Assembly (NCBI RefSeq): GCF_001899645.1
Contig: NZ_MKVV01000050.1
Span: 62,001-126,000 of the forward strand
Source of the DNA: Pseudonocardia sp. 73-21
GTDB taxonomy: Bacteria; Actinomycetota; Actinomycetes; Mycobacteriales; Pseudonocardiaceae
Length of the DNA: 64,000 nucleotides
Direction: 5' to 3'
In this document: one piece after another, positions 236-42,383 of the stretch
Layout of the letters: each line of letters starts with the position of its first letter
Numbering within the stretch: the stretch's first letter is position 1
Made by a program: the position numbers and the translations under genes
The notes under the pieces: generated by a model
What the model was told of the DNA's origin: nothing
The model's database searches: none
The model's input: the letters and a program-made list of their open reading frames with translations, nothing else

Positions 236-1485
<1,250 letters not shown>

Positions 1486-1489
<4 letters not shown>

Positions 1490-1989
1490 GCGAGGACGGT
1501 CCTCGTCTCGACTCGAACGGTCTGCACCTGTTCAGGGACGCCATGGCGTCCTTTCCCAGCGGGGTCACGATCGTCACGACCGCTGATCCGTCAGGCCGCT
1601 GGTGGGGCTTCACGGCGACGTCGTTCTGCTCGGTCTCGATGGAGCCACCGCTCGTGCTCGTGTGCCTGGCGACAACAGCCGAATGCGCACAGGTCTTCCA
1701 ACGCGCCACGCGGTGGATCGTCCACGTGATCCATCCTGACCATGCGCAGCTTGCGTTGCGTTTCGCGACCCGCGGAGCGGACAAGTTCGCCGACGCCGGA
1801 TTCGTTGCCGATGACAATGGCCTCCCGGTGCTTGATGTCGCGTCGGTGATCCTCGAATGTTCGCTGCACGATCGCCATCCGGGCGGGGACCATACGATCC
1901 TGGTCGGTCAGGTCCAGACCGTGCGGATCGGCCCGGAGACTCCAGCGGTGTATTTCCGGCGCGCGTTCCACCTCCTGCCACGGACGTGA
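1486..1989 (+). CDS. Flavin reductase (HpaC/DIM6-NTAB family)
   Basis: The 167-residue protein is a flavin reductase-like split-barrel enzyme that reduces FMN or FAD with NAD(P)H for a two-component monooxygenase. Family signatures are FRDAMASFPSGVTIVTT near the N terminus, the GFTATSFCSVSMEPP segment, and the C-terminal H-x-I-L-V-G-x-V stretch ending in YFRRAFHLL. The GTG start at 1486 overlaps the ribBA stop as GTGA. Length is normal for the family. The likely partner is the luciferase-like monooxygenase at 5400-6797, which has no reductase domain; this pairing is inferred from context. Confidence 0.88.
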
Positions 1990-2466
1990 ACGACCGGTGG
2001 GGCCGCGTGCGCGGCCCTACCGACCGGGGCGACCCCTCCGCCATGATCGCTGGCGCGGGGGCTCGGCTCAGCTGTCCGGCCCGCCTCCGCGTGTGACCGG
2101 TGCTTTGGCTACCTGGTTCCAGCTCACGCATCGAGTGACTTGACTGCTGATCACGTTCTGAGCGTGGCTGCTCGCGTCGGGCAGCGGGCCGCGGTACCTC
2201 CCTCTCGCGCGTTGCTGCTCGTCCGGTCGGGCCGCCGTCCCCGGTGGGGAAAGCGCCGCGTCGGGCATCGTCTCCGTCCTGCTGGGTAGGGGTGTGATGC
2301 AGAACGCAACACTCCGATGCTCAGCACGGGTCATCCGGCGCCGGTCGAACCGCGTGATCGCTGGTCCGGGCGTCGAGCCGCAGGCACGTGTCACGAAGTG
2401 ACACACGCCACTTCCTGCGCTGGTGGCTAGCGTCGTTCAGCGGATGGATCGAGCTCGGAGGTGGAT
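1990..2466. other. Intergenic region, 477 bp
   Basis: No convincing gene is seen on either strand. The only structured element is the palindrome at 2388-2404, about 60 bp before the acyl-CoA ligase start, so this stretch probably carries the promoter and control region of the 2467-7604 operon. Confidence 0.6.
2388..2404. promoter_or_regulatory. Palindromic operator-like site
   Basis: A perfect 7-bp inverted repeat, GTGTCAC-GAA-GTGACAC, lies about 60 bp upstream of the first gene of the catabolic operon. The spacing suits an activator or repressor site. Candidate binders are the GAF/Fis, FadR-type or TetR-type regulators encoded just after the operon. Which one binds is not determined by the sequence. 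Confidence 0.5.
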
Positions 2467-27417: not shown

Positions 27418-29121
27418 GTGACGAGGCTGGCGATCTGTGGGGGCCCCTACTCCAATCCCTACGCGTTGCGCGCGTTCGTGGCGCAGGCGCGCTCGCGTGG
27501 AGCGGACCGGCTGGTGTGCCTGGGCGACTTCGGTGCCTACGGCGCGGAACCGGAGGCGATCTGGGCGTTGCTGGTCGACAACGGGATCGAGTGCATCGCT
27601 GGGAACTACGAGGTCGCGATCGGCGGCGGGCAGACCGATTGCGGCTGCGGCTACAGCGACGACGCGGACAACGCGTTCGCCGCGATCGCCTACGACTACA
27701 CCTTCGCCCACACCTCAACCGGCTTCGCGGCATGGATGCGCACGCTCGACACCGAGCACCGGGAAACCATCGACGGGGTCGATGTGCACCTGGTGCACGG
27801 CTCGACGTTGGCGGTCAACGACTTCTGGTGGGAGTCGCTGTCGCCGGACCAGCACGAGCTGCGGGTCGCCGAGTCGAACGCCGACGTCATCTGCTGCACC
27901 CACACCGGGCTGCCCTGGACCCGGCGGGTCCCGCGCCGCGGCGGCGGGGAGACCCTCGTGGTGAACGTCGGGGTGCTCGGGCGCCCGGCCAACGACGGCG
28001 CCACCCACGTCTGGTTCGCGCTGCTCGACCTGGGCTGCGACGCCGCGGACGGGGTGGCGTCGGTGGAGCTGGTGGCGCTGGACTACGACTGGGCCGCGCA
28101 GGCGGCCTCGATCCGCGCCGCCGGACTGCCCGAGGCGTTCGCGCAGTCCGTCGAGACCGGGTACTGGACCACGTGTCTGGAGATCGTGCCCCCGGCCGAG
28201 CGATCCCGCGGGCGCTACCAGCTCTACAAGTCGGCGCTGCCGGACTTCTCCGGCGCGGCCGTGTCCTGGGCCGACCTGTCGGAGGTTCCCGAGGACGGGC
28301 TGCCGGTGCTGCCGCTGTTCGGCTCGGCAATGTTCCCGCCGCGGCTGTGGCTCTACACCAACTTCCACTGCAACCTCGCCTGCGACTACTGCTCGGTCGC
28401 CTCCTCGCCGCAGGCGCCGCGCCGCGAGATCGGCATGGAACGGTTCCGCGCCCTAGTCGACGAGGCCGTCGAGGAGGGGTTCACCGAGCTGTATGTCACC
28501 GGCGGCGAGCCGTTCCTGCAGCCCGACATCGTCGACAAGCTGTTGTACGCCACCGATCACCTCGATGTGGTGTGCTTGACCAACGGGATGCTGTATCAGG
28601 GGTATCGCCGCGAGCAGTTGCGGCGCCTGGCCGGGCGGACGCGGCTGACATTGCAGACCTCCCTCGACGGTGCGCAGCCGCACCTGCACGACGTGCACCG
28701 CGGCCGCGGGTCCTGGGCCGCGGCGATGGAAGGGCTCGACATCGCGCTGGGGTTGGGGTTGCCGGTGCGGGTCGGGATGACCGAGACCCTGCAGAACGCC
28801 GACCACGTCGAGCCGCTGCGGGACCTGCTCGCCGCCAAGGGTGTCCGCGGCCGCGACTTCGCCGTCCGCCCGCTGGTCAAACGCGGCCACTCCGACGACG
28901 GGATCCCGATCGGGGCCGACAGCACGGTGCCCGAGCTGACCGTCACCGCCCAGGGCTGGCACTGGCACCCCGCCGGCGCCGACGTCGACACCTCTCCCGA
29001 CATGCTCCTCGCCGGAGCGGACGTCTCGATGAGCGAGGCCAAACGCCGGATCGTGGAGACGTTTCTGCGGATGCGTCAGGCCGACGGATCGCTGCCACTG
29101 GTCTACAACTGTGCGGTCTGA
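27418..29121 (+). CDS. Fusion: degenerate calcineurin-like phosphoesterase + radical SAM enzyme
   Basis: A 567-residue two-domain protein. Residues 1-250 have the metallophosphoesterase layout, but key metal sites are changed: the first D-x-H is replaced (AICGGPYSNPYALRAF) and GNHD reads GNYE (AGNYEVAI). GDFGAYG, LVHGS and CCTHTGLP persist. Residues 305-567 are a radical SAM domain with the cluster motif C-x3-C-x2-C (CNLACDYC, cysteines about 318, 322, 325) and YVTGGEPFL. GTG 27418 follows GGAAGAGGACGGCTGC. It leads an operon with VTT, flavoprotein, ArsM-like and Sec-redoxin genes. Its reaction is unknown. Confidence 0.85.
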   Translation: MTRLAICGGPYSNPYALRAFVAQARSRGADRLVCLGDFGAYGAEPEAIWALLVDNGIECIAGNYEVAIGGGQTDCGCGYSDDADNAFAAIAYDYTFAHTSTGFAAWMRTLDTEHRETIDGVDVHLVHGSTLAVNDFWWESLSPDQHELRVAESNADVICCTHTGLPWTRRVPRRGGGETLVVNVGVLGRPANDGATHVWFALLDLGCDAADGVASVELVALDYDWAAQAASIRAAGLPEAFAQSVETGYWTTCLEIVPPAERSRGRYQLYKSALPDFSGAAVSWADLSEVPEDGLPVLPLFGSAMFPPRLWLYTNFHCNLACDYCSVASSPQAPRREIGMERFRALVDEAVEEGFTELYVTGGEPFLQPDIVDKLLYATDHLDVVCLTNGMLYQGYRREQLRRLAGRTRLTLQTSLDGAQPHLHDVHRGRGSWAAAMEGLDIALGLGLPVRVGMTETLQNADHVEPLRDLLAAKGVRGRDFAVRPLVKRGHSDDGIPIGADSTVPELTVTAQGWHWHPAGADVDTSPDMLLAGADVSMSEAKRRIVETFLRMRQADGSLPLVYNCAV

Positions 29122-29836
29122 CAACAGCGTGGCGGGCGGGAGCGGCACGAGCCGGCCGCCCGGCGTCCCGTGGCGCCGTGCGCTCGTACTGGTGCTGCTC
29201 CTCGCCGGGGGCGCGGCGCTCGTCGCGGCGGCGGGTGTGCCACCGGTCGAGGAGATCCGCAGCTGGGCGCGGCAGGCCGGGTGGGCGGGGCCGGTGCTGT
29301 TCGCGGCGCTGTATGCCGGGCTGAGCCTGACCCCCGCGCCGGTGGTCGTGCTCAGCATCGGCGCCGGGGTGCTGTTCGGACTGCCCGTCGCAGCCGGATC
29401 GGTGCTGGTGGGGGCCCTGGGCGGGGCGGCGATCGGGTTCGGGCTCGCCCGGGGGCTGGGCCGGGCCACGGTCAGGCAGCTCGGCGGCGACCGGCTGGCG
29501 CGGCTGGACGGGCTGCTGCGCCGCCGCGGTGTGCTCGCGGTTATCGCGGTACGGCTGGTCCCGCTGCTGCCGTTCACGACGCTCAACTACGCCTGCGGTC
29601 TCACCGCGGTCCGGGCCCGCGACTACCTGCTCGGCACCGCGCTCGGGATCGTGCCCGGCACGCTCGCCTACGTCACGATCGGCGCCTTCGGGGCCACCCC
29701 GGGCTCCGCCCCGGTCCTGCTCGCGCTCGGCGGCCTGGCCGTCCTGGCCGTCACCGGGATCGTGACCGCCCGCCGCCGTCACCAGCTCGGCCGTGACGTG
29801 ACCGCCCCGCCCGCCGAGCCGGCGCCCGGCCGGTGA
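29111..29836 (+). CDS. TVP38/TMEM64-family (VTT domain) membrane protein
   Basis: A 241-residue protein with five or six membrane segments. The VTT/SNARE-associated signature is GAGVLFGLPVAAGSVLVGAL, GGAAIGFGLARGLGRATV and the LVPLLPFTTLNYACGLTAV stretch. The GTG start overlaps the radical SAM stop by 11 bp. VTT proteins are linked to lipid scrambling and, in some bacteria, to metalloid handling next to mercury and selenite genes. It may move a lipid-linked or metalloid intermediate; this is inference. Confidence 0.82.
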   Translation: MRSDNSVAGGSGTSRPPGVPWRRALVLVLLLAGGAALVAAAGVPPVEEIRSWARQAGWAGPVLFAALYAGLSLTPAPVVVLSIGAGVLFGLPVAAGSVLVGALGGAAIGFGLARGLGRATVRQLGGDRLARLDGLLRRRGVLAVIAVRLVPLLPFTTLNYACGLTAVRARDYLLGTALGIVPGTLAYVTIGAFGATPGSAPVLLALGGLAVLAVTGIVTARRRHQLGRDVTAPPAEPAPGR

Positions 29837-29847
29837 GGAGACACCCG

Positions 29848-31059
29848 ATGACGACACCACCACGGCAGGTCGCGATCCTCGGCGCCGGGCCCGTCGGGCT
29901 CGACGCCGCCCTGGCCTGCGCGGACGCCGAGCTGCCGTTCACCGTCTACGAAGCCGGGGCCACCGTGGGAGCACACGTCGCGGCCTGGGGCCACGTGCGG
30001 CTGTTCACCCCGTGGAGCATGAACCTGTCCCCGCGGATGCGCACCCACCTGCCCGACCCGCCCGAGGGCGCGATCTGCCCGACCGGGACCGAGCTCTGGG
30101 ACTCGGTGCTGCGCCCGCTCGCAGCCGGCCCGGCGCTTGCCGGGCGGATCCGGCTGGCGCACCGCGTCATGGCGGTGGGACGCACCGGTCTGCTCAAACA
30201 CGAGGAGATCTCCACCGCAGCCCGCGCTGCGGCACCGTTGCGGCTGCTGATCGACGGGCCCGGCGGCGAGCAGGTGCACTCCGCCGACCTGGTTCTGGAC
30301 TGCACCGGCACCTACGGCCAGCCCAACCCGACGGGCGAGGGCGGTATCGCCGCGCCGGGCGAGACCGGGCTGGGCGAGCGGATCGTGCGCACCCTGCCCC
30401 CGCTAGACACCGACCGGGACCGGGCCCGCTGGCGGGGCACGGTCCTGCTCGTCGGCGCCGGGAAGTCCGCGCAGACCGCCGCGCGCAGCCTCGCCGCGCT
30501 CCCCGGCACCCGCCTGCACTGGGTGATCCGCGATCCGGACCCGGGCTGGGGCGAGATCCGCGGCGACGCCCTGCCCGGCCGCCAGGACCTCGTCGACACC
30601 GCCCGCCGCCTCGCCGCCGGTGACAACGCCCGCGTCACCGTGCACACCGGTGCCACGATCCAATCGCTTCATGCCGACCACGGACGGGTCCGGGCGCTGC
30701 TGGGGTCACCGCACGGCCCGCGGGAACTGCTCGTCGACCACCTGCTGAGCCTCACCGGGTACGTCGGGGACGCCGGGCTCTACCGGCAGCTGCAGGTCCA
30801 CGAGTGCTACGCCACCGCCGCACCGATGAACCTCTCCGCGACCCTGCTCGACACCGCAGTCTCGGACTGCCTGGCCCAACCCGCCGTCGGCGTCGACGCG
30901 CTGCGCACCCCCGAGCCCGGGTTCTTCGTTCTGGGCGCGAAGTCCTACGGCCGGCTGAGCACGTTCTTGCTGCGTGTGGGCTACGAGCAGGTCGACCAGA
31001 TCATCGGCAGCTACACCCCGCAGAACGTGTCCACCGCGCAACCGGTGCCACCCCGATGA
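29848..31059 (+). CDS. FAD/NAD(P)-binding oxidoreductase (ArsO-like flavoprotein)
   Basis: The 403-residue flavoprotein has an N-terminal FAD site (VAILGAGPVGLDAALACADA), a flavin-monooxygenase-like region (ADLVLDCTGTYGQPNP) and a second dinucleotide site, VLLVGAGKSAQTAARSLAAL. The end FFVLGAKSYGRLSTFLLRVG also fits. Flavoproteins of this group, called ArsO, recur in arsenic operons without an established reaction. ATG 29848 follows GAGGAGACACCCG and is preferred over an in-frame start at 29833. It is followed by the ArsM-like gene after 14 bp. Confidence 0.72.
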   Translation: MTTPPRQVAILGAGPVGLDAALACADAELPFTVYEAGATVGAHVAAWGHVRLFTPWSMNLSPRMRTHLPDPPEGAICPTGTELWDSVLRPLAAGPALAGRIRLAHRVMAVGRTGLLKHEEISTAARAAAPLRLLIDGPGGEQVHSADLVLDCTGTYGQPNPTGEGGIAAPGETGLGERIVRTLPPLDTDRDRARWRGTVLLVGAGKSAQTAARSLAALPGTRLHWVIRDPDPGWGEIRGDALPGRQDLVDTARRLAAGDNARVTVHTGATIQSLHADHGRVRALLGSPHGPRELLVDHLLSLTGYVGDAGLYRQLQVHECYATAAPMNLSATLLDTAVSDCLAQPAVGVDALRTPEPGFFVLGAKSYGRLSTFLLRVGYEQVDQIIGSYTPQNVSTAQPVPPR

Positions 31060-31073
31060 ATCCCGGAGGTTCG

Positions 31074-32282
31074 ATGAGCCAGATATCCACCACAGCGGGT
31101 ACCACCGCTGCCGCCCCACACCCACCAGTCGCCGATCAGGAGCAGGCGGTGGCACGACGCTACAGCGCGAGCGCGCAGCAGGTCGAGGCGGCGCTGTGCT
31201 GCCCGGTCGACTACGACCCGCGCTTCCTGGCCGCGATCCCCGCGGCCGTGCTGGAGCGTGACTACGGATGCGGGGACCCCAGCCGCTACCTCTCCGCCGG
31301 TGAGACGGTGTTGGATCTGGGCTCGGGCACCGGGAAGATCTGTTTCATCGCCTCCCAGGTCGTCGGCCCGGGCGGGCGGGTGATCGGTGTCGATGTCAAC
31401 GACGACATGCTCTCCGTGGCGCGCGCCGCGGCGCCGGTGGTCGCCGAGCGGGTCGGGCACGGCGGCGTGGAGTTCCGCAAAGCCCGCATCCAGGACCTGG
31501 CCCTGGACCTCGACGCGCTGCAGCACTGGCTCAGTGTTCGTCCCGTCACCGACCTCGACGCGCTGGCCGCGCTGGAGACCGAGCAGCGACGGTTGCGCGT
31601 CGAGGAGCCGCTGATCGCCGACGACGCGGTTGATGTGGTGATGAGCAACTGCGTGCTCAACCTGGTCGCCACCGAACAGAAGACCGCACTGTTCGCCGAG
31701 ATCTTCCGGGTCCTGCGCCGGGGCGGGCGGGCGGTGATCTCCGACATCGTCGCCTCCACCGAGGTACCCGCGCGGCTGCGCGCGGACGCGGAGCTGTGGA
31801 GCGGCTGCATCTCCGGGGCGCTGCAGGAGAGAGCGTTCCTCGCGGCGTTCGAGCAGGCCGGGTTCCACGGCATCCACCTCGTCAAGCGGGATGTGCAGCC
31901 TTGGCGGGTGGTGGAGGGCATCGAGTTCCGCGCCGTCACCGTTGTGGCCTACAAGGGCAAGCACGGCGAGTGCCGCGATCATGGCCAGGCTGTGATCTAC
32001 CCGGGCCCGTTCAAGGCGGTCCTCGACGACGACGGGCACGTCCTGCACCGGGGCGTGCCGAGCGCGGTCTGCGCGAAGACCTTCCAGCTCTACACCCGGG
32101 CCCCCTACACCGGGTTGTTCGAGCTGCTCGAACCGGTCGAGCCCATCGACCCGCACACGGCGCCTGCGTTCGCGTGCACCACCCCCGCCGCCCTCACCAC
32201 CGCCGACCCGCAGCCGCCGACCCGGCGCGACGTCGCCGGGCTCACCCGCCCCGGCGGCGACCCGGCCGCCGGGTGCTGCTGA
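31074..32282 (+). CDS. ArsM-like arsenite (metalloid) methyltransferase
   Basis: The 402-residue SAM methyltransferase carries VLDLGSGTGKICFIASQVVG and VIGVDVNDDML as SAM site. Three cysteines sit where ArsM binds arsenite: YGCG at about residue 66, SNCVLNL at about 193 and SGCISGAL at about 245. This pattern distinguishes ArsM from ordinary methyltransferases. The C terminus (about 290-402) is longer than needed and ends in CC, possibly a further thiol site. ATG 31074 has GGAGG just upstream; ATG 31056 overlaps the previous stop and is an alternative. Substrate by homology is As(III); selenium or other metalloids are possible. Confidence 0.78.
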   Translation: MSQISTTAGTTAAAPHPPVADQEQAVARRYSASAQQVEAALCCPVDYDPRFLAAIPAAVLERDYGCGDPSRYLSAGETVLDLGSGTGKICFIASQVVGPGGRVIGVDVNDDMLSVARAAAPVVAERVGHGGVEFRKARIQDLALDLDALQHWLSVRPVTDLDALAALETEQRRLRVEEPLIADDAVDVVMSNCVLNLVATEQKTALFAEIFRVLRRGGRAVISDIVASTEVPARLRADAELWSGCISGALQERAFLAAFEQAGFHGIHLVKRDVQPWRVVEGIEFRAVTVVAYKGKHGECRDHGQAVIYPGPFKAVLDDDGHVLHRGVPSAVCAKTFQLYTRAPYTGLFELLEPVEPIDPHTAPAFACTTPAALTTADPQPPTRRDVAGLTRPGGDPAAGCC

Positions 32283-32331: not shown

Positions 32332-32868
32332 ATGCGTGATCAGCCCGTCCAGCTGTCGCTGGCCGGTATCGAGCTTCCCGACGTCGACACCGGCGACCCG
32401 GTGCATCTGGGCGCTCTGGCCGGGGTGTGGGTGCTGACCCTGATCCGGCACCGCTATTGACTGCCCTGCCAGGAGCACCTGGTCCAGGTGCAGCACCTTC
32501 TCCACGGAACCGGCATCGGCCTGGTCACCATCGGGTTCAGCCCGCCGCAACCCCTGCGCGAGCTGGCCGAACACCTGCACTTGAGCGGCCCGATGCTCGC
32601 TGACGAGCAGCGCACCGTCTACCGGCTGCTCGGGCTGCGCCGGGCCCCGGTGTGGCGGGTCTACTCGCCGGGCACCCTCGCCTTCTACGCGCGGGCCCGC
32701 CTGCGCGGCCGGCAGTTGCAGCGCCCCGTCGAGGACACCCGTCAGCTCGGCGGGGACGCGATCGTCACCGACGGCGTCATCACCCGCCGGTGGCGGCCCC
32801 GCAGCCCCGACGACCGGGTCGCCCCCGAGCGTCTGGTCTGCGCCGCACGCTCGGCCGCCGGCTGCTGA
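32332..32868 (+). CDS. Redoxin (AhpC/TSA-like) with in-frame UGA: candidate selenoprotein
   Basis: One frame from ATG 32332 to TGA 32868 codes a 178-residue thioredoxin-fold peroxiredoxin-like protein with a single internal UGA (32458-32460, codon 43). The context is LIRHRY-U-LPCQEHL, so the UGA replaces the first cysteine of CxxC, giving UxxC. The downstream half is fully conserved (GLVTIGFSPPQPLRELAEHL, LADEQRTVYRLLGLRRAPVW). A SECIS-like hairpin follows (32475-32491). It is the last gene of the radical SAM/ArsM-like operon. The alternative is a simple nonsense mutation at the active-site codon. Confidence 0.75.
32475..32491 (+). promoter_or_regulatory. SECIS-like hairpin in the redoxin gene
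   Basis: GCACCTGGTCCAGGTGC forms a perfect 7-bp stem with loop GUC (or 6 bp with loop GGUCC), 14 nt after the UGA. The size of 17 nt and a GGUC apex match the minimal SelB-binding element of E. coli fdhF, which begins 11 nt after its UGA. Confidence 0.65.
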
Positions 32869-32980: not shown

Positions 32981-34420
32981 CTACCGGGCTCCGGTGTCGG
33001 CGGGCGCGTAGCGCACCGGGTCGGAGCGGAAGCTGTCGCGGCACCCGGTCGAGCAGAAGTGGTAGCTGTGCCCGGCGTGTTCGGCGGTCCCGGCCGCGTG
33101 CTGCGGGTCCACGTCCATCCCGCATACCGGATCGACCGCGGCGTCGGCGGAGCCTGCGCCGCCCGCCGGGTTGCGCTGCGCGCCGGTAGCGAACTTGGCG
33201 GGATCGGTGGTGAACCGCTCCCGGCACCGGTCGGAGCAGAAGTACAACAGCTGCCCCTGGTGCTCGGCCGTGGCCGGAGCGTTGGCCTTCTCCACCTGCA
33301 TCCCGCACACCACATCGGTCGCGTACCCGCCACCACCGCCGAATCGGTCCCGGCTGCGGTACAGCCAGTAGATCCCCGCGAACACCACCAGCGCGATGAT
33401 GTTGAGGATCGTGGTGTAGTCCCAGTGCACCCCGGTCGGCACCACGGTGACCGGACGCGTGGCCGGCACCAGATGCACGGCGGTGAACAGGTACTCCGTG
33501 GCCAGCCCGGCCACGCTCATCACCAGCCAGAACGCCCCCAACAGCCGCAACGCGACCTTCGTGCCGTAGAACTTGCGGTAGATCAGTACCAGCGGCAGCG
33601 CGATCAGGTCGGCGAAGATGAACGCGATCGTGCCGCCGAAGCTGATCCCGCCGTGCCACAGCGCCGCCGCCAACGGCACGTTGCCCACCGAGCACACGAA
33701 GCTGACCAGCGCGATGAACGGGCCCAGCACCGCGTTCTCGATGCTCGACCACGCCCCGTGCCCGGGCACGAACAGCACCTGCCACACCGCGCTCGGGACA
33801 CCGGCGAGGAAGCCTGCGATCAGCAAGCCACCGAGGAGTTCCTTGCGCAGCATCGTCAGGTCCGACACCGTGTAGCCGGCGGCGTCGGCCCACGCCCCGG
33901 GGCTGCGCAGCCGCTCGCGCAGCGCCACAACCTCGGTGTCCTCGTCGGTTCCGCTGGTCGCGGCGAGCCGCTGCTGCACCCGCGCCAGCAGGTCGGCGGG
34001 CAACACCCGGGGCAGCACCACCGCCAGCAACGCGATCATGATGGCGCCGCCGACGAACTGGGCGAGCGCGAACTGCCAGCCGATCAGCAGCCAGATCACC
34101 AGCCCGATCGCGATGTTGAGGTTGGTGGAGGCCAACATGAAGATCATCGCCGCGGTGAAGTTCGCCGAGCGGGCGAACAACGACCGCGCCAGCGCGCTCG
34201 CCGCATACGAACACGACGAACTCGCCGCCCCCAGCAGCGACGCCCGGGTCACAGAGCCGGCCGTGAGCCGGCCCAGCACCCGGTGCATCGCCCGACGCGA
34301 GGCGAAGGCCTGCACCATCCCGGACAGTGCGAACCCCACCACCAGCGCCCACAAGGTGTCCCACAACATGTAGAACGCCATCGCGACGCCGTCACTGACG
34401 ATGTGCCATGCGGTGTCCAT
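32981..34420 (-). CDS. Permease (ArsP/DUF318 type) fused to two YHS domains
   Basis: A 479-residue protein. Residues 1-370 are a permease of the DUF318/ArsP type with the cysteine-containing helix GAASSSCSYAASALARSLF, ASTNLNIAIGLVIWLLIGW and VCSVGNVPLAAALWHGGISF. Two YHS metal-binding domains follow (VVCGMQVEKANAPATAEHQG with LYFCSDRCRERF; DPVCGMDVDPQHAAGTAEHA with YHFCSTGCRDSF). ArsP exports trivalent organoarsenicals. The YHS pair suggests delivery of a soft metal or metalloid to the pore. ATG 34420 follows AAGGAGTGACCCGA. It is co-oriented with the CsoR-like gene. Confidence 0.82.
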   Translation of the reverse strand: MDTAWHIVSDGVAMAFYMLWDTLWALVVGFALSGMVQAFASRRAMHRVLGRLTAGSVTRASLLGAASSSCSYAASALARSLFARSANFTAAMIFMLASTNLNIAIGLVIWLLIGWQFALAQFVGGAIMIALLAVVLPRVLPADLLARVQQRLAATSGTDEDTEVVALRERLRSPGAWADAAGYTVSDLTMLRKELLGGLLIAGFLAGVPSAVWQVLFVPGHGAWSSIENAVLGPFIALVSFVCSVGNVPLAAALWHGGISFGGTIAFIFADLIALPLVLIYRKFYGTKVALRLLGAFWLVMSVAGLATEYLFTAVHLVPATRPVTVVPTGVHWDYTTILNIIALVVFAGIYWLYRSRDRFGGGGGYATDVVCGMQVEKANAPATAEHQGQLLYFCSDRCRERFTTDPAKFATGAQRNPAGGAGSADAAVDPVCGMDVDPQHAAGTAEHAGHSYHFCSTGCRDSFRSDPVRYAPADTGAR

Positions 34421-34425
34421 TCGGG

Positions 34426-34623
34426 TCACTCCTTCCGATTCCGCTTCCGGGCGCGGTGTCCGCGCCAGATCCCGCGCCAGATCCCGCGCAGTTCCCCGGC
34501 CACGAAGCCCAGCCGCCGCGCCGGCGAGGTCGAGCAGTCGGGCACCGTCTCACCGGTCTGTCCGTCGACCGGGCACGCCGGCAGGCGCGGCTCGTCATTG
34601 GTGGGTCGTGGCGTCTGCGGCAT
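34426..34623 (-). CDS. Small hypothetical protein between repressor and permease
   Basis: A 65-residue basic protein (MPQTPRPTNDEPRLPACPVD, ending WRGHRARKRNRKE) with two cysteines. A GAAGGGACTCCGCGG precedes ATG 34623. It ends 5 bp before the permease start, consistent with a three-gene operon. Small basic proteins in this position are common next to DUF318 permeases; function unknown. Confidence 0.5.
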   Translation of the reverse strand: MPQTPRPTNDEPRLPACPVDGQTGETVPDCSTSPARRLGFVAGELRGIWRGIWRGHRARKRNRKE

Positions 34624-40799: not shown

Positions 40800-42188
40800 T
40801 CAGGCGCAGCAGGAGGTGGGCATGTCGGTGCGGAACAACCCGGCCGCGATGCGCAGGCTCTCGGCCATGGTCAGATACGGCGCCCAGGTGTCGGCGACCT
40901 CGTCCACGGTCATCGCTGCCTTTATCGCGTAGGTCGCGGCCAGCATCAGTTCCCCGGCCGCGTCCGCGGCGGCGTGCACACCCAGGACCCGCCCGGTCTC
41001 AGCGTCGGCGACCAGCTTCACCACCCCGCGGGTGTCGCCGTTGGCCAGCGCACGGGGCACGTCGACCAGGTGCAGCACCCGGCACACGCACCGGTACCCG
41101 GCCTCGAGCGCCTGGGCTTCGGTGAGCCCGGCCGAGCCAAGCTGCGGGCGGGTGAACACCACCCCGGGCATCCCGGTGTAGTCCACAACCGCCGGCCGCG
41201 CCCCGGCGGCGGCGGTGGCGTTCAGCGCGGCCGCGCGCCCGGTGGCGGCGGCCACGTAGACGTACTGCGGGCCCCCGGCCACATCCCCGGCGGCGAAGAT
41301 CCGCGGGTTGGAGCTGGCCTGCCGCTCGTCGACCACGACGAAACCCCGCCCGTCGGTCTTCACCCCGGCCACATCCAGGCCCAGGGTCGCGGTACGCGGG
41401 CTGCGCCCGGTCGCCACCAGCAGCCTGGCGCCGCTCACGCGCTGCCCGGACCGGGTCACCACCACGACCTGCCCGTCGACAGTCTCGACCGCGACCGCCC
41501 GATCCTCGACGACCGTGATCCCGTCATCGGCGAACACCCCGCGTAGCGCGTCAGCGACCTCCGGTTCGGCGGCCGGGGCCAGCCGGCCGACCAGGGTGAC
41601 CCGGGCGCCGAGGTGGGCGAACAGCTGCGCCTGCTCCATCCCCACGTAGCCGCCGCCGATGACGACCAGCGACTCCGGCAGCGCCGTGAGCTCCATCGCG
41701 GTGGTCGAGCTGAGCCAGTCGACCTCCTCGAGGCCCGGCAGCCCGGGATCCGCGGGGTCGGCGCCGGTCGCGATCAGATACGCCCGCGCCGCCACCGGTT
41801 GCCCGTTCACGACCAGGGTGTCCTCGCTGGTGAACCGGGCATGCCCGGGGCGGATCTCGAACCCGTGGGCGGTGGCCACGTCGGCGTACTTGGCCTGGCG
41901 CAGCCGCCCGACCAGCTCGTCCTTCTGCCCGACCAATGCGCCCAGATCCACCGGTCCGGCCGAGGTCGGTGCGCCCGGGAACGGGTTGCCCACCGCCGAA
42001 TGCCGGGCCCCGGCCGCGGCCAGCAACGTCTTGGACGGCACACAGCCGACGTTGACACACGTCCCGCCCAGGGTGGCCTGCTCGATGAGCCCCACGGTCT
42101 TCCCGGCCTGCCGCGCCGCGATCGCCGCCGCCATCGCCGCGCCCCCGGAACCGATCACGGCCAGGTCGAACACATCGGTGTCATTCAC
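40800..42188 (-). CDS. merA: Mercuric reductase
   Basis: The 462-residue flavoenzyme has the FAD site LAVIGSGGAAMAAAIAARQA, the redox pair GGTCVNVGCVPSKTLL at about residues 44-49 and the second nucleotide site LVVIGGGYVGMEQAQLFAHL. The C-terminal vicinal cysteines in DMPTSCCA mark MerA rather than other disulfide reductases. No N-terminal NmerA domain is present. It reduces Hg(II) to Hg(0) with NADPH. It is divergent from the ArsR-type regulator at 42384, its likely controller. Confidence 0.92.
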   Translation of the reverse strand: MNDTDVFDLAVIGSGGAAMAAAIAARQAGKTVGLIEQATLGGTCVNVGCVPSKTLLAAAGARHSAVGNPFPGAPTSAGPVDLGALVGQKDELVGRLRQAKYADVATAHGFEIRPGHARFTSEDTLVVNGQPVAARAYLIATGADPADPGLPGLEEVDWLSSTTAMELTALPESLVVIGGGYVGMEQAQLFAHLGARVTLVGRLAPAAEPEVADALRGVFADDGITVVEDRAVAVETVDGQVVVVTRSGQRVSGARLLVATGRSPRTATLGLDVAGVKTDGRGFVVVDERQASSNPRIFAAGDVAGGPQYVYVAAATGRAAALNATAAAGARPAVVDYTGMPGVVFTRPQLGSAGLTEAQALEAGYRCVCRVLHLVDVPRALANGDTRGVVKLVADAETGRVLGVHAAADAAGELMLAATYAIKAAMTVDEVADTWAPYLTMAESLRIAAGLFRTDMPTSCCA

Positions 42189-42383
42189 TGAGCAACCTCC
42201 AGGAAGTCGTGCGGTCAGGCGGTCAGGCCGGGCGGTGGAACCCCCGGTCCCCGGCGGAGGTTCCCCGGGATGCTGATCGCGGGGTACCCGTCACCGAATC
42301 GTTCAATCTGCTTTGCCGAATGTATGCTAGCTTCCTGGCACTCGTGCAGGCGGAGCGTCGATCGTGGAAGGAACTGGACACGG

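Follow-up and report, generated by a model that had tools for sequence, protein, structure and literature searches.

Results

The redoxin gene and its surroundings

The window analysed here is a stretch of 64 kb with a GC content of 70% (C50:62001-126000), taken from a genome of 7.09 Mb in 111 contigs. It contains a same-strand row of five genes that closes with a redoxin gene, flanked by a divergent glycosyltransferase gene and a convergent permease gene (Table 1). The first four genes of the row overlap if their starts are right; the GTG start of the radical-SAM fusion was inferred from the ORF in Pseudonocardia nigra. The ATG of the ArsM-like gene overlaps the preceding stop, and this gene lies directly upstream of the redoxin gene, with a gap of 49 nt. 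An Rfam search of the window at gathering thresholds and a tRNA search of the 64 kb found nothing, and searches of plasmids and phages for the redoxin gene gave no match.

Table 1. Features of the redoxin locus (window coordinates)
Feature	Position	Strand	Remarks
TIGR04283 arsenosugar-biosynthesis-type glycosyltransferase, divergent	26373..27386	-	TIGR04283 200.7 bits, over cut-off 182
Metallophosphoesterase/radical-SAM fusion (Rv1681-like)	27418..29121	+	PF12850 and PF04055; NF049973 275.7 bits, below cut-off 380
VTT-domain membrane protein	29111..29836	+	PF09335 80.6 bits
Flavoprotein (FAD/NAD(P)-binding, monooxygenase-like by eye)	29833..31059	+	weak Rossmann matches below Pfam cut-offs
ArsM-like arsenite methyltransferase	31056..32282	+	NF040538 324.4 bits (below cut-off 500), NF008823 182.9 bits (below cut-off 263)
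Predicted Sec-containing redoxin gene (SelL-related, AhpC-TSA_2)	32332..32868	+	178 codons including Sec43, UxxC active site
In-frame UGA, codon 43	32458..32460	+	predicted to be read as selenocysteine; conserved in relatives
Candidate bacterial SECIS hairpin	32475..32491	+	within coding sequence, 7-bp stem
ArsP_1 permease with two YHS stretches, convergent	32981..34429	-	PF03773 201.2 bits, PF04945 89 bits

Translation of the redoxin frame gives 178 residues with a sole internal TGA at codon 43 (LIRHRY-U-LPCQEHLVQV), and the terminal codon is TGA as well. This agrees with the original prediction of a lone in-frame UGA in an otherwise open frame (RHRY-U-LPC). Counting codon 43, 104 TGA codons of the window are preceded by over 42 open codons and followed by 120 or more; in four of these, codon 43 among them, a Cys follows three codons on. 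Since open-flanked TGA codons are common and the hairpin described below is matched in part of the synonymous recodings, the window by itself cannot prove recoding.

A candidate SECIS hairpin within the coding sequence

At 14 nt past the TGA, GCACCTGGTCCAGGTGC pairs perfectly over all 7 bp around a GTC loop, as had been claimed. The hairpin has an energy of -9.8 kcal/mol and its 3-nt loop, with G as the first base, begins 21 nt from the UGA. It satisfies the published bacterial SECIS model, which asks for a loop of 3-9 nt, a stem of 4-16 bp, G in the first two loop bases, a distance of 16-37 nt from the UGA and an MFE of at most -7.5 (PMC13188914). As evidence from a lone sequence, it is weaker than the original prediction had made it, because its energy is equalled by 7.7% of 400 synonymous recodings; the gene's remaining codons equal it in 9.5% of cases.

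Across relatives, the signal lies far beyond chance. The published model fits 38 of 46 UGA genes, versus 8.6 expected after synonymous recoding, and 1243 of 7288 (17.1%) other codons of these 46 genes. Only one of the 18 Cys homologues tested fits it (18 rows counted, with L086, whose match was out of frame, and other Cys-type loci left out; the Cys loci L106 and L108 lie outside the 46-gene set). Eight of the 46 UGA genes miss the threshold and only 10 are individually below 5% against recoding; as the rows are related, they do not represent 46 independent trials.

Two types of hairpin were found in different clades. Type A (33 genes) goes with the peptide HLV and has its loop 20-21 nt from the UGA. 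Type B (12 genes) goes with the peptide QL, and in the 10 genes that fit the model the loop AGTT lies 25 nt from the UGA. One gene, L092, fits neither type.

Compensatory changes were evaluated against a shuffling that does not preserve relatedness. There were 21 double-change cells in type A versus 7.2 (SD 1.9) in shuffled alignments, and 6 versus 1.5 in type B; for both types, none of 500 shuffles was as high. The covariation scores (0.200 vs 0.074 for type A, 0.260 vs 0.127 for type B) were likewise never reached by the shuffles. The number of pairs changed on both sides was not clearly above the shuffles (211 of 500 as high for type A, 20 of 500 for type B), nor was the count of pair types (204 and 401 of 500, respectively). 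The outermost (17-35) and innermost (24-28) columns of type A are each unpaired in 18 of 32 rows, and 17-35 supplies 8 of the 21 double-change cells. When the pairing partners were slid, the number of paired cells always fell; a slide of +3 in type B left the double-change cells equal (6) and the changed pairs at 4 vs 3, but with 45% vs 92% paired. In L087, L088 and L100, a synonymous change from CAC to CAT is matched by an exchange of Val for Met (GTG to ATG), and the stem is preserved.

Some genomes carry more than one copy. In G803, L112 (about 1214-2016, minus strand) comprises tandem UGA redoxin genes, and the hairpin of the second one fails the SECIS model. G996 (L096, L114) and G909 (L097, L113) each have one type-A and one type-B putative Sec redoxin.

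Conservation of the UGA and exchange with Cys

Some redoxin match was detected in 12 of 62 genomes of the genus and in 30 of 390 of the family. Every family locus that covers codon 43 at 50% identity or more has a UGA at this site (18 of 18 loci in 17 genomes), comprising the window locus and 17 others with 51-81% identity. L016 is the same P. nigra sequence as L017 (G023) and was counted once. Four partial matches were left out, namely L037 (G261, at a contig end), L031 (G023), L025 (G027) and L029 (G001, with an internal TAG); their upstream DNA holds no UxxC or CxxC piece of the redoxin gene. P. nigra (G023) has two UGA redoxin genes (L017, L028) and a partial third one (L031), whose active-site part was not found.

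In the phylum sample, 27 of 396 genomes gave matches at E 1e-8. In the 28 further loci, own locus excluded, the UxxC site carries UGA in 26 and Cys in two (L106 and L108, from one genus). The class sample, with a match in 20 of 394 genomes, contributed one more UGA locus, L070, as well as distant Cys-type proteins. Two Cys orthologues are among the protein-database matches listed: P0004 (62%) with RHRH-C-LLC and P0005 (55%) with RHRH-C-HLC. Homologues with neither Cys nor UGA at codon 43 had been named as an observation that would speak against the original prediction; the homologues gave UGA or Cys.

With the active site masked, 46 Sec rows and 16 Cys rows gave a maximum-likelihood tree in which L092 is a long branch and L101 is of unusual composition. 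The tree needs four changes of the Sec/Cys label, and well-supported branches force four. P0004 and P0005 are placed within the Sec clade of the family. Selection was estimated from nine loci of the genus (36 pairs): the median dN/dS is 0.51 before the UGA and 0.40 after it, and none of the 36 pairs reaches 1 on either side.

The selenocysteine machinery

The absence of selB and tRNA-Sec from the genome had also been put forward as a possible refutation, and it failed: both are present, in addition to selA and a UGA-containing selD. The tRNA-Sec scores 74.9 bits and ARAGORN assigns it the anticodon tca. On contig C40, selA (385.5 bits), selB (248.6 bits) and selD (386.2 bits) are all over their NCBIfam cut-offs, with the selB match spanning profile positions 2-339 of 581. 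The UGA of selD stands in HGAG-U-ACK. There is one in-frame UGA in each of two formate dehydrogenase alpha genes of the genome (G000 C40:63245-66256 and C51:4915-7983); in the one that was read, the context is ARI-U-HSS. With this machinery and the UGA codons in selD and fdhA, the cell very likely decodes UGA as Sec elsewhere, and the redoxin is a further client of the machinery rather than the sole reason for it.

For the other genomes, tRNA-Sec was counted above a threshold of our own, 60 bits, because ordinary tRNAs seem to reach about 47 bits, which equals the Rfam cut-off; applying that cut-off would make 44 of 50 genomes positive. Above 60 bits, a tRNA-Sec is present in 17 of the 18 family genomes with the redoxin gene (a count that includes G261 with its truncated copy), the exception being G055, which is 72% complete. 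Within the genus its presence is not tied to that of the gene, as 17 of 18 genomes lacking the redoxin are positive too. In the phylum sample, 8 of 12 genomes carrying a UGA copy gave one (the exceptions are G964, G845, G1035 and G909), and neither of the two with a Cys copy did. A search of 13 genomes for selB found it whole in G909, partial in G964 and G1035 and present in the two Cys genomes; it was not clearly seen in G845, G055 and G008. Incomplete assemblies may explain these gaps in tRNA-Sec and selB.

Protein family and fold

The redoxin matches PF13911 (AhpC-TSA_2) with 40 bits, over the gathering cut-off of 27, and PF00578 (AhpC-TSA) with 25 bits, just below the cut-off of 26. Its only NCBIfam match, which covers most of its length, is NF040769 (SelL-related redox protein) with 88.2 bits, below the curated cut-off of 120. 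Two of seven divergent Sec relatives tested pass this profile (L089 with 128.6 and L099 with 147.4 bits). The SelL motif is UxxU, and the window protein differs from it by its UxxC as well as by its score.

In the structure model (pLDDT 95.4), Sec43 is the residue just before helix 44-57. This position at the start of the active-site helix and the peroxiredoxin matches in Foldseek are what a peroxiredoxin/thioredoxin fold would give. By profile, the best solved relative is prostamide/prostaglandin F synthase (PDB 9us9, 9usa; 3e-15, residues 14-170), to which the single-sequence match is weak (E 0.015). The structure 9usa is also the first Foldseek row, with 22% identity to the window protein, and its title names C44 and C47, a spacing equal to that of Sec and Cys in the window. 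When the top 1000 chains of Foldseek were re-aligned with VIA-align 2, bacterial and archaeal Bcp/PrxQ peroxiredoxins ranked equal to or above the prostamide synthase.

According to profiles and model, the redoxin is predicted to be a peroxiredoxin-fold protein of the SelL-related/PF13911 branch with a UxxC motif, most likely acting as a thiol/selenol:disulfide reductase. The original prediction had pointed to the Prx-like selenoproteins; by these scores, the SelL-related/PF13911 branch is closer to the protein than are the classic Prx-like PF00578 proteins.

Gene neighbourhood

Gene order was compared among 18 family loci (the window, L066 and L050-L065), and as several of them end at contig ends, absences of neighbours are soft. 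Neighbouring ArsM and ArsP genes are present in two loci, the window and P. nigra. Homologues of the radical-SAM fusion and of the VTT protein occur in 10 loci each, window included, and a TIGR04283-type glycosyltransferase in nine. The flavoprotein preceding the ArsM-like gene has homologues near the Sec gene in L053, L055, L057 and L066.

A TrsS-like radical SAM protein is encoded in 12 of the 18 loci; none was found in our own genome by a search that had no positive control. The copy at L057:6550-7971, weakly similar to the selenoprotein TrsS (NF045646, E 6e-4), reads without a UGA.

A MerA/lipoamide-dehydrogenase-like flavoenzyme is present in 15 of the 18 loci, separated from the redoxin gene by about 0.6 to 8.5 kb, counting a partial one in L052 and the window copy, which is 8.5 kb off and matches at 38%. 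Elsewhere in the phylum, 6 of 20 loci from other families have a MerA-like gene close to that for the redoxin (L123, L124, L128, L130, L132 and L137); L136 gave no redoxin match in the synteny analysis. As it is so often nearby, the MerA-like protein is the best candidate for the electron donor. The window copy (40830-42230, minus strand) is a flavoprotein that contains GGTCVNVGCVPSK.

In L050, L052, L056, L058-L060, L128, L130 and L132, the redoxin gene repeatedly has genes for a substrate-binding protein, an ABC ATPase and a CDP-alcohol phosphatidyltransferase close by, a set reminiscent of the ynj/ydj genes of E. coli.

Discussion

Our data indicate that an actinobacterium related to Pseudonocardia very probably decodes UGA as Sec in a small redox protein. 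Coding through the UGA, a selected hairpin, the Sec machinery, the Sec/Cys exchange and the gene order are established by comparison at the level of sequence. The insertion of Sec, which the original prediction had inferred, is supported by the conserved UGA, the SECIS element, the machinery and the exchange of Cys and Sec. We are highly confident that the best explanation overall is a selenoprotein redoxin of the SelL-related/AhpC-TSA_2 branch, with Sec43 decoded by means of SelB and the hairpin and with a UxxC redox cycle.

The UGA might instead be a real stop, the gene being split, decayed or mis-sequenced, so that only a piece of 126 aa from the GTG at 32488 is made. The frequency of open-flanked TGA codons in this GC-rich window would agree with that, and so would the protein databases: of the 120 relatives listed among 284 hits, drawn from a capped set of candidates, 82 have at most 141 aa and the remaining 38 exceed that length. 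The short ones begin after the UGA, including those of P. nigra (126 aa) and Actinomycetospora cinnamomea (127 aa), which is how ordinary annotation had been expected to split the gene. Against a real stop, all 18 family loci covering the site have the identical UGA, the codons on either side of it are under purifying selection in one frame, the site is that of the first active-site Cys of homologues, and the SECIS element is conserved. We therefore consider a real stop very improbable. A sequencing error is very unlikely, and a pseudogene was rejected, given that 17 further family loci share this UGA; a separate downstream gene only was rejected because of the selection on both sides of the UGA. 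That the UGA is read as another amino acid, either as Trp or by near-cognate readthrough, appears hardly credible. Trp does stand at the site in two JGI database proteins (P0003, P0006), where TGA was probably translated under a TGA=Trp code on those contigs. Among the 38 longer relatives listed, however, 35 have Cys at the site (the motif is absent in P0120), and the UGA-free homologues at the DNA level have Cys as well, for which reason Trp was rejected. Moreover, the genome has its own Sec machinery with UGA in selD and fdhA, and the redoxin gene itself terminates with TGA.

For the selenoprotein redoxin we propose the following mechanism. SelB and Sec-tRNA would decode the UGA, aided by the downstream hairpin. 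The predicted active site is Sec43-Leu-Pro-Cys46, in which Sec replaces the first active-site Cys, and this pair would cycle between selenol/thiol and selenenylsulfide. The protein could thus serve as a fast reductase of thiol/selenol:disulfide, peroxide or metalloid substrates. In relatives, it would probably be recharged from NAD(P)H by the MerA/lipoamide-dehydrogenase-like flavoenzyme encoded nearby; in our own genome, a general reductase may perform this step. Within the gene row of the window, the redoxin may serve to maintain an arsenite-methylating or organoarsenical pathway in the reduced state.

As a Sec redoxin, the protein might instead belong to general oxidative-stress or sulfur/selenium metabolism, with the adjoining arsenic genes being incidental; in our estimation this has an even chance. 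Such a role would fit the restriction of ArsM/ArsP neighbours to the window and P. nigra, and the pairing of the redoxin at other loci with a MerA-like reductase, a TrsS-like radical SAM protein and partly an ABC transporter. On the other hand, the window redoxin is the last gene of a same-strand row that includes an ArsM-like gene, and the TIGR04283 glycosyltransferase and the radical-SAM fusion recur near the redoxin in half or more of the family loci (9 and 10 of 18). Radical SAM chemistry of organoarsenicals has been described (PMC12159101). Judged as an organoarsenical cluster, which would combine ArsM with a C-As-forming radical SAM enzyme and a glycosyltransferase, the window has its TIGR04283 protein over the cut-off, and the ArsM-like and radical-SAM proteins are below their equivalog cut-offs. 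For a role in organoarsenical metabolism, only the surroundings in the window and in P. nigra are suggestive; the case is weak because the arsenic neighbours are present at only two of 18 loci.

The ArsM-associated selenoproteins (NF041537, NF041536, NF047649) likewise tie Sec domains to ArsM. The ArsM-like protein of the window matches their methyltransferase part, below the cut-off. These families are named as fusions with other Sec domains, whereas the window has a separate redoxin gene after ArsM. A wider reading, which we offer tentatively and regard as possible but rather unlikely, is that the phylum-wide actinobacterial Sec-redoxin subfamily is a dedicated selenol reductant of a metalloid natural-product pathway that comprises radical SAM, phosphoesterase, TIGR04283 glycosyltransferase and MerA-like reductase proteins and sometimes ArsM. 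Its SECIS element would have moved between clades (loop 20-21 vs 25 nt after the UGA), each time shaping the protein sequence.

A 2006 survey includes Prx-like selenoproteins, and gives 12 families for Actinobacteria (PMC1794560), and the GOS paper describes SelL as a Prx-like family that also occurs in eukaryotes (PMC2398784). In Table 1 of a 2026 review, the nearest listed selenoproteins are Prx-like PF00578 proteins with UxxC/UxxU and cd02970 proteins with UxxS; its main text does not contain the terms 'SelL', 'Actinobacteri', 'Actinomycet' or 'Pseudonocardia' (PMC13188914). A 2022 review also gives pfam13911 with UxxS (PMC9312934). The window protein shares with the Prx-like thiol:disulfide oxidoreductases the UxxC motif with Sec at the first Cys, and differs from them in its profile scores, being just under the cut-off of PF00578 and over that of PF13911. 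With the peroxiredoxin-like AhpC/TSA selenoprotein (cd02970/PF13911) it shares the Pfam domain and differs in having UxxC rather than the listed UxxS. The accessible part of the deep-Sep paper mentions neither Actino- nor AhpC (PMC12013277). Titles and abstract starts of the open-licence literature yielded no paper on an actinobacterial Sec-redoxin subfamily, which is no proof of absence.

Overall, the finding adds a conserved selenoprotein subfamily to the host phylum, whose genes are often truncated in public databases, so that the redox role of the subfamily is hard to see. Two hairpin positions in one family, with compensatory changes and a near-absence of the hairpin in Cys homologues, provide a natural test of the constraint that a SECIS element puts on the protein. 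The gene neighbourhood makes a link between selenium and arsenic testable.
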